Assembly: GCA_018394295.1 (NCBI GenBank)
Contig: CP074573.1
Coordinates: 3,104,543-3,168,542, forward strand
Reading direction: 5' to 3'
Source of the DNA: Mycoplasmatota bacterium
GTDB taxonomy: Bacteria > Bacillota_I > Bacilli_A > Haloplasmatales > Haloplasmataceae
Length of the DNA stretch: 64,000 nucleotides
Position numbers and translations under genes: made by a program. The notes under the pieces were generated by a model. The model was not told the DNA's origin. It ran no database searches and saw only the letters and a list, made by a program, of their open reading frames with translations. How positions within the stretch are numbered: position 1 is the first letter of the stretch; each line of letters begins with the position of its first letter. Of the stretch, positions 14,117 to 45,616 are shown piece after piece.

Positions 14117-15136
14117 TTGAGTAAGAATAAAAATAAAAAGAAAAATTATTATAAAAATCATAAAAAAATAAAAGAGGAAAAAGAAGTTAATAATGTTGAT
14201 TCATCAGAAAGTATAAATGATGAAGTAGAAAATAAACCAATAAACGAAGATTTGTTTATTTATGAAGAAAAAGAAGAATATAAAGTAATCGCTGTTAGAT
14301 TTAAAAATGTTGGTAAGAAATATTTCTTTGATCCACGAGATATTGATTTAAAAGTAAATGATAAAGTATTAGTTGAAACAATAAGAGGAATTGAGTTTGG
14401 CGAAGTTGTTTCAGATATTAAACTAGTAACTAAAGATGAAGTGTTTTTACCGATAAAACCAATTATAAGAAAAGCAACTGATGAAGATTTAAAAAAATAT
14501 TATCAAAATAAAGAAGAAGAGAGTCATATACTAGATAAATGTCAACAGTTAATTATTAAAAATGAATTATCTATGAGACTATTAGGGTGTGAATATACGT
14601 TTGATAGAACTAAATTAATCATTTACTTCAGTGCTGAAAATAGAATTGATTTTCGTCAATTAGTTAAAGATTTAGCATCTATTTTTAGAACACGGATTGA
14701 GTTGAGACAAGTAGGCGTACGAGATGCAGCGAAATATATTGGTGGATTAGGTCCTTGTGGTCGTGTTTTATGTTGTAATACTTTTTTAGGAAATTTTGAT
14801 ACAGTTTCTATTAAAATGGCGAAAAATCAAAATTTATCACTTAATCCACAGAAAATATCGGGTGCCTGTGGAAAACTATTATGTTGTTTACGGTATGAAT
14901 CGGAATTTTATGATGAAATGTCAAAACTAATGCCTCGTGTAGGTGAAATTGTCACAACACCAGATGGTGAAGGTAAAGTGTTTGGTATAAATGCACTATT
15001 AGATACTGTAAAAGTTATCATAACAGAATCAAGTGCAGTTAAATCATATCAACTTAAAGATATCAACAGAACTTCAGTTAGTAAAGATGAAGATGAAGCT
15101 GTAGATGAAGAATTATTAGTTTTAGAAAAAGAATAA
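14117..15136 (+). CDS. ricT: PSP1-domain protein RicT (YaaT)
   Basis: 339 residues from a TTG start with AAAGGAGG 8 nt upstream. The N-terminal 50 residues are lysine- and glutamate-rich and probably disordered. The PSP1 domain follows and carries the paired cysteine motifs GPCGRVLCCNTF and GACGKLLCCLRYE. In Bacillus, RicT with RicA and RicF forms the Y-complex, which binds [4Fe-4S] clusters and directs RNase Y in mRNA maturation; it also affects sporulation and competence. RicA and RicF are not in this window. Placement after holB is the conserved Bacillota order. Confidence 0.93.
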   Translation: MSKNKNKKKNYYKNHKKIKEEKEVNNVDSSESINDEVENKPINEDLFIYEEKEEYKVIAVRFKNVGKKYFFDPRDIDLKVNDKVLVETIRGIEFGEVVSDIKLVTKDEVFLPIKPIIRKATDEDLKKYYQNKEEESHILDKCQQLIIKNELSMRLLGCEYTFDRTKLIIYFSAENRIDFRQLVKDLASIFRTRIELRQVGVRDAAKYIGGLGPCGRVLCCNTFLGNFDTVSIKMAKNQNLSLNPQKISGACGKLLCCLRYESEFYDEMSKLMPRVGEIVTTPDGEGKVFGINALLDTVKVIITESSAVKSYQLKDINRTSVSKDEDEAVDEELLVLEKE

Positions 15137-17450: not shown

Positions 17451-18014
17451 ATGCCAGGTACAACGATTTTAATTATTATAGCTGTTATAGTTATCTTTAT
17501 TATATTATGGATTGCCGGAGGATATAATAGTTTACAAGCCGGTAAAATTAAGGTTGATGAAGCAGAATCAGGAATTGATGTTGCTTTAACAAAACGTTTT
17601 GATGTTTTAACTAAAATGGTTGAAGTTGTAAAAGGTTACGCTAAACATGAGCGAGAAACATTAGAAAAAGTAATCGCTATGCGTAATTCAGTTAACTTAG
17701 GAAATTCATCAATTGAAGAAAAACAAAAAATGGTTACTCAAATGGATGCAGCGATGCGTGCTATTAATGTAGTTGTTGAACAATATCCAGATTTAAAAGC
17801 AAATGACAATTTCAAACAACTACAAATGACTATATCTGATGTTGAAGAACATTTACAAGCTGCTCGTAGAGTTTATAATGCAAATGTATCAGCATATAAT
17901 CAAAAAGTACAATTATTCCCATCAAATATAATTGCGGGAATGTTCCACTTTACAACAAGAGAATTCTTCGAGGCAGAAGAATTTAAACGTAAAGACGTAG
18001 AAATTAAATTTTAG
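17451..18014 (+). CDS. lemA: LemA family protein
   Basis: 187 residues: one N-terminal transmembrane helix (about 4-26) followed by an all-helical domain, the LemA architecture. The family hallmarks are visible: YNSLQAGKIKVDEAES, the helix with VEVVKGYAKHERETLEKV, and the C-terminal FPSNIIAGMFHFTTREFFE. Function is not established in bacteria; the protein is usually anchored with its helical domain outside the membrane. AGAGGAGG precedes the ATG. Single gene with its own terminator. Confidence 0.93.
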   Translation: MPGTTILIIIAVIVIFIILWIAGGYNSLQAGKIKVDEAESGIDVALTKRFDVLTKMVEVVKGYAKHERETLEKVIAMRNSVNLGNSSIEEKQKMVTQMDAAMRAINVVVEQYPDLKANDNFKQLQMTISDVEEHLQAARRVYNANVSAYNQKVQLFPSNIIAGMFHFTTREFFEAEEFKRKDVEIKF

Positions 18015-18150: not shown

Positions 18151-18711
18151 ATGAGTATTTGTATATTTTATTATGATGGATTTTGTGAGTTTGAAGTGGT
18201 ACTTAGTGCTTTACAATTTAAAGGAAATTATTTTACTGCTGCATTAGAAAATCGAATTTATATTAGTGAAGAGAAACAAAAATTTATACCGGATAAAACA
18301 ATTGATGAATTAAATACTGATGATATAGATTTATTTATTATCCCAGGTGGTAATCCAGCTTACTTATATAACAATATACAGTTAAAAGATTTTATAAAAG
18401 AACTAAATAGAACAAATAAATTGATAGCGGGTATTTGTGCAGGAACATATCTAATGGCAAGTTATGGATTACTTGAAAACAAACGATGCACAGGAGCATC
18501 ATCTGGTATTGATGAAAATGGTGAATATTTTGATTTATTTAAGAATTCGATTATTGTTAAGGAGGATGTTGTTGTTGATGGCAATGCAATCACTTCAACT
18601 GGTCAAGGTTTTATTGAACTTGCTTTACAACTTTGTATAATGATGAAAGTATATTCTAATGATGATGAGGCTGTAAAAGCTTATAACTGGTTCAAAAACT
18701 TCAAGTATTAA
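18151..18711 (+). CDS. DJ-1/PfpI family protein
   Basis: 186 residues with a class I glutamine amidotransferase-like fold. The nucleophile elbow is AGICAGTYLMASYG with the expected Cys; IIPGGNPAYL supplies the acidic partner region. Members act as glyoxalases, chaperones or proteases, and the sequence alone does not decide among these. GAGGGAG precedes ATG 18151. Single gene with a terminator downstream. Confidence 0.85.
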   Translation: MSICIFYYDGFCEFEVVLSALQFKGNYFTAALENRIYISEEKQKFIPDKTIDELNTDDIDLFIIPGGNPAYLYNNIQLKDFIKELNRTNKLIAGICAGTYLMASYGLLENKRCTGASSGIDENGEYFDLFKNSIIVKEDVVVDGNAITSTGQGFIELALQLCIMMKVYSNDDEAVKAYNWFKNFKY

Positions 18712-18789: not shown

Positions 18790-18818
18790 TTGAATATAAT
18801 TTTTTAATGATATATAAT
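18790..18818 (+). promoter_or_regulatory. Promoter of the Spo0A-like gene
   Basis: TTGAAT (18790-18795), 17 bp, TATAAT (18813-18818): a good sigma-A promoter 30 nt before the start codon. Confidence 0.6.
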
Positions 18819-18848
18819 AAAATTAGATAAATATAAATGGGTGATTGT

Positions 18849-19628
18849 ATGAGGAAAAAAAGAGTTTTAGTGGCTCACAATAATATTGAGTTTATTGAAC
18901 TACTAAGGCAGTGCTTTTTAGAGAATGACTTATACACATTAAGTGATATTGCTTTGAACGGACAGGAATTACTAAACAAAGTCTCTTTAGATAATTATGA
19001 TATTGTTATTTGTAAAAATGCATTAACGCAAGTGACGGGTTTATATGCCTTGGAAGGTTTGTTTTCTAAAACAAAAAATAAACCAGAGATAATCATTTTA
19101 ATAACCCCATTTATTAATGACTTTATAAGGAATAAGTGTCAGAAATTAAATATTGATTATATTCAAGGTTTAGATGTTAATATAAGTGAAATTCATCAAT
19201 TATTATGTCATCTTGGAATAAAGAAAACGGTAGAAGGAAAGAAATATTTTGAATCTCAAATTGAAGTCATAAATATATTAAAAAAAATAGGTTTACTAAA
19301 AACATATATTGGATATGCTTACTTTGAGTATGTTTTGAATATCATGTTAGAAAAGAGTGAGAATATAAATAAGTACATGAAAACTATTTATCATATGGTT
19401 GGGCAACATTTTAATGTTAGTGCAACAAGTGTTGAGAAGGCAATGAGAACTTGTATAAAATCATCATTATCAAAAAGTGATGGGTTTTATGCGAAAATGT
19501 TGTTTGGATATTATGAAGATAAATATCCATCAACATCCATATTTTTACAAGTGTGTATAAAAACCTTGAAAGAACAAAAAAATATGATTATTTCTAATAA
19601 TATTGGTAGATCAACACGAAAAATATGA
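18849..19628 (+). CDS. Spo0A-like regulator with a degenerate receiver domain
   Basis: About 259 residues, close to Spo0A (267), and alignable by eye along its length. The receiver domain begins KRVLVAHNN where Bacillus Spo0A has IKVCVADDN, so the acidic pocket Asp10 and Asp11 are His10 and Asn11. The phospho-acceptor Asp56 is Lys56 (IVICKNAL), and the Lys at 108 is also lost. The C-terminal domain keeps the Spo0A DNA-binding pattern: [15 protein letters not shown], then the recognition helix region [15 protein letters not shown], then [13 protein letters not shown]. It should bind DNA but cannot be phosphorylated in the normal way. ATG 18849 follows GGGTGAT; a single gene with its own promoter. 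Whether a normal Spo0A exists elsewhere cannot be seen. Confidence 0.8.
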
Positions 19629-19713: not shown

Positions 19714-20466
19714 ATGAGAAAACCTATTATCGCAGGAAACTGGAAAATGAATAAAACACGTGATGAGGCACTTCAATTTATTTATGCTGTAAATCAAGCA
19801 GTTCCTTCAATTGAAGAGGTGGATACTGTTGTATGTGCCCCAGCAGTTTTATTACGTTGCTTAGTAAAAAGACAAGGAGATAATTTAAAAATTGGTGCTC
19901 AAAACATGCATTATGAAGCAAGTGGTGCCTTTACAGGTGAAATATCTCCAGTAATTTTAAATGATACAGGTGTTAGTTACGTAATTATTGGTCATAGTGA
20001 AAGACGTCTTTATTTTAATGAAACTGATGAAGCAGTAAATAAAAAAACACACGCTGCTTTTAAATATGATTTAACACCGATTGTATGTGTAGGTGAGCAA
20101 TTAGAACAACGTGAGAATAATATGACAAATCAAGTAGTTGAAGCTCAAACTAAAAAAGCATTAGAAGGCTTAAGCGCTGAAGAAGCTAAACAAGTAGTTA
20201 TTGCTTATGAACCAATTTGGGCTATTGGGACAGGTAAAACAGCAACGCCAGAGATGGCTAATGAAACTTGTGGATATATTCGCTCTGTTGTTGAGAGCAT
20301 TTATGGAAAAGCTGTTAGTGATGCGATTCGTATTCAATATGGTGGTTCAGTAAAACCAGCAAATATTAAAGAATTAATGTCACAAGAACATATTGATGGA
20401 GCATTAATTGGTGGTGCTTCATTAAATGCAGATTCATTTAATGAAATGGCAAATTATCAAAAATAA
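19714..20466 (+). CDS. tpiA: Triosephosphate isomerase
   Basis: 250 residues, standard length. It interconverts dihydroxyacetone phosphate and glyceraldehyde 3-phosphate. Motifs: AGNWKMNKT with the active-site Lys, IGHSERR with the catalytic His, and [14 protein letters not shown] with the catalytic Glu. The true start is ATG 19714, 9 nt after AAAGGAGA; longer readings run into the upstream gene. A TATAAT at 19671-19676 may be its -10; the TTGACA at 19636 is too far from it. An IS1595-type element lies 17 nt after the stop. Confidence 0.96.
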
Positions 20467-26930: not shown

Positions 26931-27494
26931 ATGAGCATTAATGTATTTAATGAAACAGAAATTGAACTAATAAAAAATAATCCAAATGTTAAGCGTGTGT
27001 CAAGTAAATCTATTACTTATACCCTTGAATTCAAGATTGACTTTATGCATGAATATAGAGGCGGAAAATTACCACGTCAAATATTTATTGAACATGGTTT
27101 TGATGTTGATATTATAGGGATGAAACGAATAGAACAATGTGCAACTAGATGGAAGAGACTTTATAATGACGGAGGCGTTGTTTCACTTGATGATTCCCGT
27201 AAAGATAATCGAGGAAGATATAAGCATGAAATTCAAACCGAAGAACAAGAGATTGAGAAATTAAAGGCTAAAATTGCTTTAATAGAAATGGAAAATGATA
27301 TGTTAAAAAAGCTCGACGAAAGCGAAAGGAGGAATGGGAAAGAAATAAGAAAAAGTGATAAATTTGAGATGATCAAAAAGTCATCCATAAATCTAGAAGA
27401 CCAGGAATACAAGATTATTTATGTAGTGTGGCAGAAGTATCAAGAAGTGGTTACTATAACTACCATTCAGAAAAATCAAAGAAGAATAGAATGA
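26931..27494 (+). CDS. IS3-family OrfA (copy 1)
   Basis: 187 residues. The N-terminal half is a helix-turn-helix DNA-binding region (TLEFKIDFMHEYRGGKLPRQ; the second helix near RIEQCATRWKRLYNDGG); the second half ends with a leucine-zipper-like helix (EIEKLKAKIALIEMENDMLK). It overlaps orfB by 67 bp in the -1 frame. A likely slippery site, C AAA AAG (27374-27380), lies in the OrfA frame just after the last -1-frame stop (27365-27367), so a fused OrfAB can be made, as is known for this family. AAGGAGAAG precedes ATG 26931. Confidence 0.88.
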   Translation: MSINVFNETEIELIKNNPNVKRVSSKSITYTLEFKIDFMHEYRGGKLPRQIFIEHGFDVDIIGMKRIEQCATRWKRLYNDGGVVSLDDSRKDNRGRYKHEIQTEEQEIEKLKAKIALIEMENDMLKKLDESERRNGKEIRKSDKFEMIKKSSINLEDQEYKIIYVVWQKYQEVVTITTIQKNQRRIE

Positions 27495-28231
27495 AAAAGG
27501 AACAAAATGATAAGAAAAGATTTAAACTCATCAAGGAAGTATTTGAGGTTGGAAAGAAAAAGTATGGTGCTAAACAAATTAAGATGCATTTAAAGGAAAA
27601 CATGAATTTGAAGTCCATTAGAAGAATTATGAGTAAATATGGTCTAGTATGTAAAATACGTAGACAGGATCCTTATAAGCAGATGTTAAAAGCAGATCAA
27701 AACCATAGAGTACACAAGAATCATTTAAATAGAAACTTTGATCAGCAGTCTCCATATAAGGTGTTACTGACTGATATTACGTATATAAGGTATAATAATA
27801 GATTCGCATATTTATCTACCATATTAGATGGTAGTACGAAAGAATTAGTTGCTTATAAGGTATCAAATAATCTTAAAATTGACTTTGTATTGGATACAGT
27901 TAAAGAATTAGACAATATAAACTTACCTGAAAATGCCATTATACATTCGGACCAAGGAAGTCATTATACAAGTCCTAAATTCTCAAAAGAAGTGAGGTCA
28001 AGAAACTTACTTCAATCAATGTCTCGTAGAGGTAACTGTTGGGATAATGCACCTATAGAATCGTTCTTTGGCCATATGAAAGACTATATAGACTTTTCAG
28101 AATGTAAAACATTAAAAGATGTAGAACTAAAAATAGATGATTATATGTACTATTACAATCACCAAAGATATCAGTGGAAACTAAATAAGCTGACTCCTAT
28201 TGAATTCAGGAATCAGCTTAAAGCAGCATAA
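27428..28231 (+). CDS. IS3-family OrfB, DDE integrase domain (copy 1)
   Basis: 267 residues counted from the first ATG, but probably translated as the C-terminal part of OrfAB after a -1 frameshift near 27380. The rve-type DDE domain is intact: first Asp in LLTDITYIRYNN, second Asp in IIHSDQGSHYTS, Glu in NAPIESFFGHMK. The opening VAEVSRSGYYNYH is the usual linker of OrfB proteins. It differs from copy 2 only by one silent T/C change near 27940, showing that the two copies arose recently. Confidence 0.9.
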   Translation: MAEVSRSGYYNYHSEKSKKNRMKKEQNDKKRFKLIKEVFEVGKKKYGAKQIKMHLKENMNLKSIRRIMSKYGLVCKIRRQDPYKQMLKADQNHRVHKNHLNRNFDQQSPYKVLLTDITYIRYNNRFAYLSTILDGSTKELVAYKVSNNLKIDFVLDTVKELDNINLPENAIIHSDQGSHYTSPKFSKEVRSRNLLQSMSRRGNCWDNAPIESFFGHMKDYIDFSECKTLKDVELKIDDYMYYYNHQRYQWKLNKLTPIEFRNQLKAA

Positions 28232-37011: not shown

Positions 37012-37575
37012 ATGAGCATTAATGTATTTAATGAAACAGAAATTGAACTAATAAAAAATAATCCAAATGTTAAGCGTGTGTCAAGTAAATCTATTACTTA
37101 TACCCTTGAATTCAAGATTGACTTTATGCATGAATATAGAGGCGGAAAATTACCACGTCAAATATTTATTGAACATGGTTTTGATGTTGATATTATAGGG
37201 ATGAAACGAATAGAACAATGTGCAACTAGATGGAAGAGACTTTATAATGACGGAGGCGTTGTTTCACTTGATGATTCCCGTAAAGATAATCGAGGAAGAT
37301 ATAAGCATGAAATTCAAACCGAAGAACAAGAGATTGAGAAATTAAAGGCTAAAATTGCTTTAATAGAAATGGAAAATGATATGTTAAAAAAGCTCGACGA
37401 AAGCGAAAGGAGGAATGGGAAAGAAATAAGAAAAAGTGATAAATTTGAGATGATCAAAAAGTCATCCATAAATCTAGAAGACCAGGAATACAAGATTATT
37501 TATGTAGTGTGGCAGAAGTATCAAGAAGTGGTTACTATAACTACCATTCAGAAAAATCAAAGAAGAATAGAATGA
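37012..37575 (+). CDS. IS3-family OrfA (copy 2)
   Basis: 187 residues, identical in sequence to the copy 1 protein. See 26931-27494 for domains and the C AAA AAG frameshift site, here at 37455-37461. It could still supply OrfA or OrfAB in trans for copy 1, although its own element lacks the left end. Confidence 0.88.
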   Translation: MSINVFNETEIELIKNNPNVKRVSSKSITYTLEFKIDFMHEYRGGKLPRQIFIEHGFDVDIIGMKRIEQCATRWKRLYNDGGVVSLDDSRKDNRGRYKHEIQTEEQEIEKLKAKIALIEMENDMLKKLDESERRNGKEIRKSDKFEMIKKSSINLEDQEYKIIYVVWQKYQEVVTITTIQKNQRRIE

Positions 37576-38312
37576 AAAAGGAACAAAATGATAAGAAAAG
37601 ATTTAAACTCATCAAGGAAGTATTTGAGGTTGGAAAGAAAAAGTATGGTGCTAAACAAATTAAGATGCATTTAAAGGAAAACATGAATTTGAAGTCCATT
37701 AGAAGAATTATGAGTAAATATGGTCTAGTATGTAAAATACGTAGACAGGATCCTTATAAGCAGATGTTAAAAGCAGATCAAAACCATAGAGTACACAAGA
37801 ATCATTTAAATAGAAACTTTGATCAGCAGTCTCCATATAAGGTGTTACTGACTGATATTACGTATATAAGGTATAATAATAGATTCGCATATTTATCTAC
37901 CATATTAGATGGTAGTACGAAAGAATTAGTTGCTTATAAGGTATCAAATAATCTTAAAATTGACTTTGTATTGGATACAGTTAAAGAATTAGACAATATA
38001 AACTTACCCGAAAATGCCATTATACATTCGGACCAAGGAAGTCATTATACAAGTCCTAAATTCTCAAAAGAAGTGAGGTCAAGAAACTTACTTCAATCAA
38101 TGTCTCGTAGAGGTAACTGTTGGGATAATGCACCTATAGAATCGTTCTTTGGCCATATGAAAGACTATATAGACTTTTCAGAATGTAAAACATTAAAAGA
38201 TGTAGAACTAAAAATAGATGATTATATGTACTATTACAATCACCAAAGATATCAGTGGAAACTAAATAAGCTGACTCCTATTGAATTCAGGAATCAGCTT
38301 AAAGCAGCATAA
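37509..38312 (+). CDS. IS3-family OrfB, DDE integrase domain (copy 2)
   Basis: 267 residues, identical in sequence to the copy 1 protein; the only nucleotide difference (CCC instead of CCT for a proline in INLPENAII) is silent. All three DDE residues are present. Confidence 0.9.
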   Translation: MAEVSRSGYYNYHSEKSKKNRMKKEQNDKKRFKLIKEVFEVGKKKYGAKQIKMHLKENMNLKSIRRIMSKYGLVCKIRRQDPYKQMLKADQNHRVHKNHLNRNFDQQSPYKVLLTDITYIRYNNRFAYLSTILDGSTKELVAYKVSNNLKIDFVLDTVKELDNINLPENAIIHSDQGSHYTSPKFSKEVRSRNLLQSMSRRGNCWDNAPIESFFGHMKDYIDFSECKTLKDVELKIDDYMYYYNHQRYQWKLNKLTPIEFRNQLKAA

Positions 38313-45046: not shown

Positions 45047-45616
45047 ATGCGTCGCGGAATCACATTGTTAGTTTTATTGTTTGGGATAATTATTAGCATG
45101 AACGATAAAATTAATTTTGCTCAATCTAAAAGTTCAAATATACCAGAGGAAGCTATTCGGTTACGCATAATTGCTAATAGTAATGATTCATTTGATCAAG
45201 AAATTAAATTAAAGGTTAGAGATGAAGTTATTCAGACGATTTCTCCTTTAGTCAAAGATATTAATGACCCATATGAAGCGCGTCTTGTTATCTATGACAA
45301 TTTAGAAGAAATTAAGTCTACAGTTGCAAACGTCCTTAGTGAGAATGAAGTGGATACTAATTACTATGTTGATTATGGAGTAACTTATTTTCCAAAGAAA
45401 GTTTATAATAATAAACTATATCCTGCTGGAAAATATGAAGCTGTGTATATTGTTTTAGGTGAAGGGGAAGGCGACAATTGGTGGTGTGTCTTATTTCCGC
45501 CATTATGTCTTGTAGATTTAGCTACAAATAATGGGGACTATCCTACAGAAGACACAAATATATCATATTCTTTTTTGATAGTTGAAAAAATAAAAGAATT
45601 ATTAGGTTATAAATAG
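45047..45616 (+). CDS. spoIIR: Stage II sporulation protein R
   Basis: 189 residues. An N-terminal hydrophobic segment (RGITLLVLLFGIIISM) for export, then the SpoIIR domain: IRLRIIANSNDSFDQEIKLK, KVRDEV, YPAGKYEAVYIVLGEGEGDN and WWCVLFPPLCLVD. In sporulating bacteria SpoIIR is secreted by the forespore and triggers SpoIIGA to cut pro-sigma-E in the mother cell. Its presence means the lineage has, or recently had, sporulation genes. AGGTAGGTGA precedes the ATG. Confidence 0.93.
   Translation: MRRGITLLVLLFGIIISMNDKINFAQSKSSNIPEEAIRLRIIANSNDSFDQEIKLKVRDEVIQTISPLVKDINDPYEARLVIYDNLEEIKSTVANVLSENEVDTNYYVDYGVTYFPKKVYNNKLYPAGKYEAVYIVLGEGEGDNWWCVLFPPLCLVDLATNNGDYPTEDTNISYSFLIVEKIKELLGYK

Follow-up and report, generated by a model that had tools for sequence, protein, structure and literature searches.

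A Spo0A Look-Alike with a Replaced Phosphorylation Pocket in the Family Haloplasmataceae

Introduction

Spo0A is regarded as the only gateway to sporulation, and one that is opened by phosphorylation. Regulators without phosphorylation control are already known, namely the aspartate-less response regulators and the receiverless Spo0A homologs of phages (PMC4395418, PMC12632262, PMC10294663). The former, which include RitR, ChxR, CmrT, and WhiI, combine a receiver fold devoid of working phosphorylation chemistry with a DNA-binding domain of the OmpR or LuxR type (PMC4395418, PMC12632262); about 65% of their receivers have an acid at the first position, and about 70% have a base at the position of the pocket lysine (PMC4395418). 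The phage homologs are truncated, with the receiver missing (PMC10294663). A partial literature search turned up no full-length Spo0A paralog with a dead receiver, so that a full-length aspartate-less regulator of the Spo0A type is apparently undescribed, although such a search is weak evidence of novelty.

The window analysed here, a stretch of 64,000 nucleotides from a Mycoplasmatota bacterium of the family Haloplasmataceae, carries a gene encoding a Spo0A look-alike. This protein shares with Spo0A of the Bacillus subtilis type (TIGR02875) the two-domain layout, both folds, and the Spo0A_C profile, but differs in lacking Asp10, Asp11, Asp56, and the lysine of the KPF motif, in bearing serine in place of Arg211, and in having an altered, shorter sigma-A loop. 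Like the aspartate-less response regulators, it joins a receiver fold without working phosphorylation chemistry to a DNA-binding domain, although its effector is Spo0A_C. As in the phage-carried homologs, its Spo0A_C is without signal control by phosphorylation; unlike them, the look-alike is full-length, chromosomal, and found at a fixed locus. A selected, family-wide paralog of this kind offers a natural test of the role of a receiver without phosphate and of a shift in Spo0A_C specificity, and the Haloplasmataceae, on which little work exists and which keep spore genes, gain in it a candidate regulator (SpoIVA, SASPs, SpoIIR).

Results and Discussion

Architecture of the Look-Alike

The open reading frame encoding the Spo0A-like pseudo-response regulator occupies positions 18849–19628 of the forward strand (259 aa). 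An alternative in-frame ATG at 18837 would yield a protein of 263 aa; the start at 18849, from which all residues are numbered, was preferred because GGTGAT lies just 5′ of it and the same methionine is invariant across the orthologs. The protein has the architecture of Spo0A, that is, a receiver followed by Spo0A_C. The receiver-fold domain, without phosphorylation chemistry (18855–19241, forward strand), has a structural match in 1qmp, and the DNA-binding domain (PF08769; 19266–19565, forward strand) a fold match in 1lq1. The Pfam Spo0A_C profile matched with 66.8 bits (E = 2e-18) against a cut-off of 25 bits, and the receiver profile with 23.9 bits, which is under the cut-off of that profile. 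Compared with Spo0A, the look-alike has a shorter interdomain linker and falls far below the cut-off of 200 bits of the equivalog TIGR02875, with 69.5 bits for the window protein and 54.7–57 bits for three of its orthologs. Both Spo0A domains were recognised in the AlphaFold model (pLDDT 88.7), the receiver aligning with that of Spo0A (1qmp) at Z 17.3 and an rmsd of 2.4 over 124 residues, and the C-terminal domain with its DNA-bound counterpart in Spo0A (1lq1) at Z 16.2 and an rmsd of 1.9 over 109. The relation of the C-terminus to Spo0A, on which the original prediction depended, was thus borne out by profile as well as by fold.

Phosphorylation Pocket

Alignment to B. subtilis Spo0A placed His10, Asn11, and Lys56 of the look-alike opposite Asp10, Asp11, and Asp56, exactly the replacements that had been proposed from the window protein. 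The pair His10-Asn11 (18876–18881, forward strand; codons at 18876–18878 and 18879–18881) stands in place of the metal-binding Asp-Asp pair, and Lys56 (19014–19016, forward strand) in place of the phospho-acceptor, which is Asp in all 29 canonical Spo0A proteins compared. All three residues are invariant in the eight orthologs, though these are only 31–67% identical to the window protein. Assuming that invariant receiver columns are scattered at random, the probability that all three columns of the acidic triad are invariant is about P = 0.0005, a value that ignores the relatedness of the eight proteins and serves as a guide only. A further loss, which the original prediction did not include, concerns the pocket lysine of the KPF motif, absent from every ortholog.

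Since the receiver has lost the acceptor, the metal-binding acids, and the pocket lysine, with fixed replacements at the acidic triad, it would be unable to use the phosphotransfer chemistry of Spo0A; from established receiver chemistry, phosphotransfer of this type is very unlikely. The earlier claim that the protein cannot be phosphorylated is therefore well supported for the way in which Spo0A is phosphorylated. No conserved aspartate takes over elsewhere in the receiver. A shifted acceptor at residue 57 was considered and rejected, this position being Asp in four orthologs and Asn in the other four, with no conserved acid in the pocket. Judged by the aligned residues, the pocket is replaced, not merely broken. 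With its receiver fold (Z 17.3 to 1qmp) and a lysine at the acceptor position throughout the eight orthologs, the look-alike is an aspartate-less receiver, and it differs from most of these in having lost both the first acid and the pocket lysine (PMC4395418). We infer, from the pocket only, that its activity is independent of phosphorylation.

The reading that we favour, and hold to be somewhat better than evenly probable, is that the look-alike is a family-specific Spo0A paralog turned phosphorylation-independent, one-component-like DNA-binding regulator, with its own site distinct from the canonical 0A box, where it would chiefly repress or serve as an accessory regulator. The receiver may be locked in one state or respond to a partner or ligand, and repression by the protein would be likelier than activation from sigma-A promoters. 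Expression, driven by the promoter of the gene itself or by that of lemA, would determine its output. The gene coexists with an intact canonical circuit of Spo0A and 0A boxes.

DNA-Reading Residues and Canonical Spo0A

Among the orthologs, no part of the DNA-binding domain is better conserved than the recognition helix (19422–19475, forward strand; 0.70). From the 1LQ1 work, Arg211 and Arg214 are taken to be among the residues contacting bases in Spo0A. This role is backed only indirectly, by their conservation in 29 of 29 canonical proteins, by the published contacts of Spo0A with G2, C4, and G5 of TGTCGAA (PMC3485338), and by the lack of spores in Paenibacillus polymyxa with a spontaneous R211H change (PMC9195935, PMC10782996). 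In the look-alikes, Arg211 is replaced by serine in all eight proteins (Ser194 of the window protein, 19428–19430) and Arg214 by lysine in seven. Compared with the 29 canonical proteins, the position of His162 is never histidine and that of Glu221 is always basic. Val212, Glu213, Ala215, and Arg217 are kept, and since Glu213 and Arg217 are present in all eight, some 0A-like recognition could remain. The counterpart of the sigma-A-activating region, at 19476–19526 (forward strand), is rewritten and one to three residues shorter in the orthologs (three in the window protein); in Clostridium pasteurianum, an eight-residue deletion in this region results in an asporogenous phenotype (PMC4690370). 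The notion that the DNA-binding domain is retained was thus correct for the fold but not for the 0A-box-reading residues, and given the substitutions at Arg211 and Arg214, binding of the look-alike to TGTCGAA boxes is doubtful.

In the 3.29-Mb source genome, PF08769 matches two places, the look-alike and a canonical Spo0A, so that a search for the latter, suggested along with the original prediction, had a positive outcome. The canonical protein has the Asp-Asp pair, Asp56, and KPF, and it scores 332.8 bits against TIGR02875. Its gene is situated directly downstream of a spoIVB-like gene, whereas the look-alike lacks the spoIVB-spo0A synteny and lies between lemA and tpiA instead. Upstream of canonical spo0A, each of the eight Haloplasmataceae genomes has a pair of perfect TGTCGAA boxes of opposite orientation with a constant separation of 55 bp (about 130 and 184 bp before the gene in L001; likewise in L019, L017, L018, L010, L014, L013, and L016), and this pair is a candidate autoregulatory site. 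In the eight genomes, the 250 bp preceding the look-alike contain no 0A box, and no target site of the look-alike emerged from the analysis. A TGTAGAA with one mismatch, which recurs some 19 bp ahead of the lemA stop, was discarded as a site, being part of the lemA coding sequence.

Because canonical spo0A and its boxes are present in all eight genomes, the look-alike is not the organism's only Spo0A, and families that lack it, such as f11, still have canonical Spo0A, which marks the look-alike as an addition and not a requirement. The suggestion of a phosphorylation-independent master regulator is not upheld, as every genome of the family has a complete canonical Spo0A whose gene is preceded by two perfect boxes. 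The other role first proposed, that of an antagonist, would have the unphosphorylated look-alike occupy canonical 0A boxes and block Spo0A~P, thereby raising the sporulation threshold. Such competition would profit from the retained Spo0A_C fold, from the unchanged Val212, Glu213, Ala215, and Arg217, from the perfect boxes at canonical spo0A in all eight genomes, and from the altered sigma-A-activating loop, with which a bound protein probably would not activate. The proposal is nevertheless weakened by the serine at Arg211 in all look-alikes, the lysine at Arg214 in most of them, the loss of His162, the link between R211H and lost sporulation in P. polymyxa (PMC9195935, PMC10782996), and the lack of 0A boxes at the look-alike's own gene, and we consider it unlikely. 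Owing to the substitutions R211S and R214K, the change in the sigma-A loop, and the restriction of 0A boxes to canonical spo0A, a separate phosphorylation-independent regulator with its own site would be likelier than either a competitor for 0A boxes or an alternative master regulator of sporulation.

With regard to the sporulation setting, the presence of SpoIIR in the window was confirmed at 45047–45616 (TIGR02837, 165 bits). SpoIVA and 4–7 SASP genes per genome were identified in all eight Haloplasmataceae (G000–G007), and by gene content the family would seem to have the genetic equipment for endospore formation. A classical phosphorelay Spo0B was not seen with the SPOB_a profile among the eight family genomes; six of them had no match at all, and the matches in the source genome are kinase-like frames of 395–519 aa adjoining response regulators.

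Conservation along the Receiver

Conservation of the receiver as a whole among the look-alike orthologs was 0.43, with the lowest values in alpha1 (0.23), beta5 (0.25), and alpha5 (0.22), with 0.40 for alpha4, and with a conserved side formed by beta3-alpha3-beta4 (0.64–0.81). By analogy with WhiI, which acts with BldM in Streptomyces, the look-alike might pair with canonical Spo0A as a heterodimer partner that tunes or redirects it. Pseudo-receivers acting through heterodimers are known (PMC4125116, PMC12632262), the modelled receiver fold is intact, and the conserved beta3-alpha3-beta4 side may be an interface; the usual dimer face, alpha4-beta5-alpha5, is nevertheless poorly conserved despite a canonical Spo0A that is 84–95% identical across the family, and we rate such pairing as likewise unlikely. 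Far less probable is a decoy role, in which the receiver, having the fold and being unable to accept phosphate in the Spo0A way, would soak up sporulation kinases or phosphotransfer proteins, since alpha1, the usual contact for kinases and Spo0B, is among the least conserved parts, against 0.70 for the recognition helix.

Family Distribution, Selection, and Origin

One low-scoring Spo0A_C protein, the look-alike, was identified in each of the eight genomes of the GTDB family Haloplasmataceae. A profile built from the eight look-alikes was searched against 296 genomes of the class; the eight orthologs scored 347–433 bits and the next matches in the class at most 103 bits, the high-scoring ones among these being canonical Spo0As, and no ortholog was found in the 288 other genomes. 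For the closer pairs, dN/dS of the look-alike was about 0.12–0.17, compared with 0.03–0.06 for canonical Spo0A, so the look-alike protein changes clearly faster. By this measure, purifying selection keeps the look-alike, which is not, as far as substitution patterns tell, a decaying copy of Spo0A. A relic losing its function, for which the long stem branch and the faster protein change could be quoted, is largely refuted by this selection, by the intact gene at one locus in all eight genomes, and by the fixed residues of the pocket and the recognition helix, and is the least probable explanation of all.

The eight look-alikes group in a single clade (100/100) whose outermost member is G006, just as in the tree of canonical Spo0A, and this agreement suggests vertical inheritance. 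The stem branch is very long, at 4.5–5.5 changes per site, so that the tree puts the divergence from canonical Spo0A neither within the family nor ahead of it. An origin from a phage or plasmid was rejected: there was no plasmid match, and the only two matches among phage records, at 22–23% identity, are too distant to be the source.

Locus and Promoter

In all eight genomes the look-alike lies between lemA (17451–18014 in the window, forward strand) and tpiA (19714–20466, forward strand), and in the source genome only, a gene of the DJ-1/PfpI family (18151–18711, forward strand) separates the look-alike from lemA. The neighbour of tpiA in most of the outgroup families examined is pgk. Where contigs reach that far, the locus is downstream of a tmk-holB-ricT-trmN6 block. 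The RicT/YaaT gene of this block is located at 14117–15136 of the window (NF041131, 300 bits), a few genes upstream of the look-alike. RicT/YaaT affects Spo0A phosphorylation in B. subtilis, and its proximity here may be coincidental.

In two genomes, the gaps to lemA and tpiA are only 10–22 bp and about 20 bp, respectively, and at these distances the look-alike is probably co-transcribed with its neighbours. A sigma-A-type promoter-like site, TTGAAT-17-TATAAT, was found at 18790–18818 (forward strand), and it recurs in three other orthologs, the equivalent site with a 17-bp spacer lying 30–32 bp before the start in four of eight, the window protein included. Recurrence thus speaks for the promoter of its own that had been ascribed to the gene, but such sites are not enriched over shuffled sequences in this AT-rich stretch. 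Elsewhere in the window, two copies of one two-ORF transposase element, IS3-like by appearance, are located at 26931–28231 and 37012–38312.

Other Spo0A Paralogs and Variants

Fast-evolving Spo0A_C proteins with a degenerate receiver are also present in five genomes of family f19 (L082:2385-3092, L083:2588-3307, L084:3076-3888, L085:3011-3703, and L092:2066-2728). Their genes immediately precede hemW, and most of them follow lepA and an unknown gene with a product of about 300 aa. Like the look-alike, each is a second Spo0A_C gene beside the canonical one, with a degenerate receiver and a fixed housekeeping locus; unlike it, the f19 paralogs occupy another locus, carry other pocket residues, and form a separate group in the tree, and on account of this separate group they are probably of independent origin. 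The f19 set suggests that receiver-degenerate Spo0A paralogs arise repeatedly. More speculatively, and as a prospect that we put forward only tentatively, the Haloplasmataceae could possess a second Spo0A that needs no phosphorylation and reads a DNA site of its own, dedicated to development or an unusual cell form, with f19 having independently reached a similar state, so that receiver-dead paralogs would be a recurrent regulatory solution next to the canonical switch.

Other variants of Spo0A were encountered as well. Further paralogs over the equivalog cut-off are present in G006 and G004 (L040:4966-5757, L041:4780-5562, and L038:525-1286), the one in G004 having Asn at the acceptor position. 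G001 encodes a receiverless Spo0A_C protein of 129 aa (L039:4771-5160) that resembles the truncated phage-type Spo0A. Finally, Spo0A proteins of families f5 and f13 (L011 and L012) keep Asp56, but their Asp-Asp pair is replaced by Glu-Glu.
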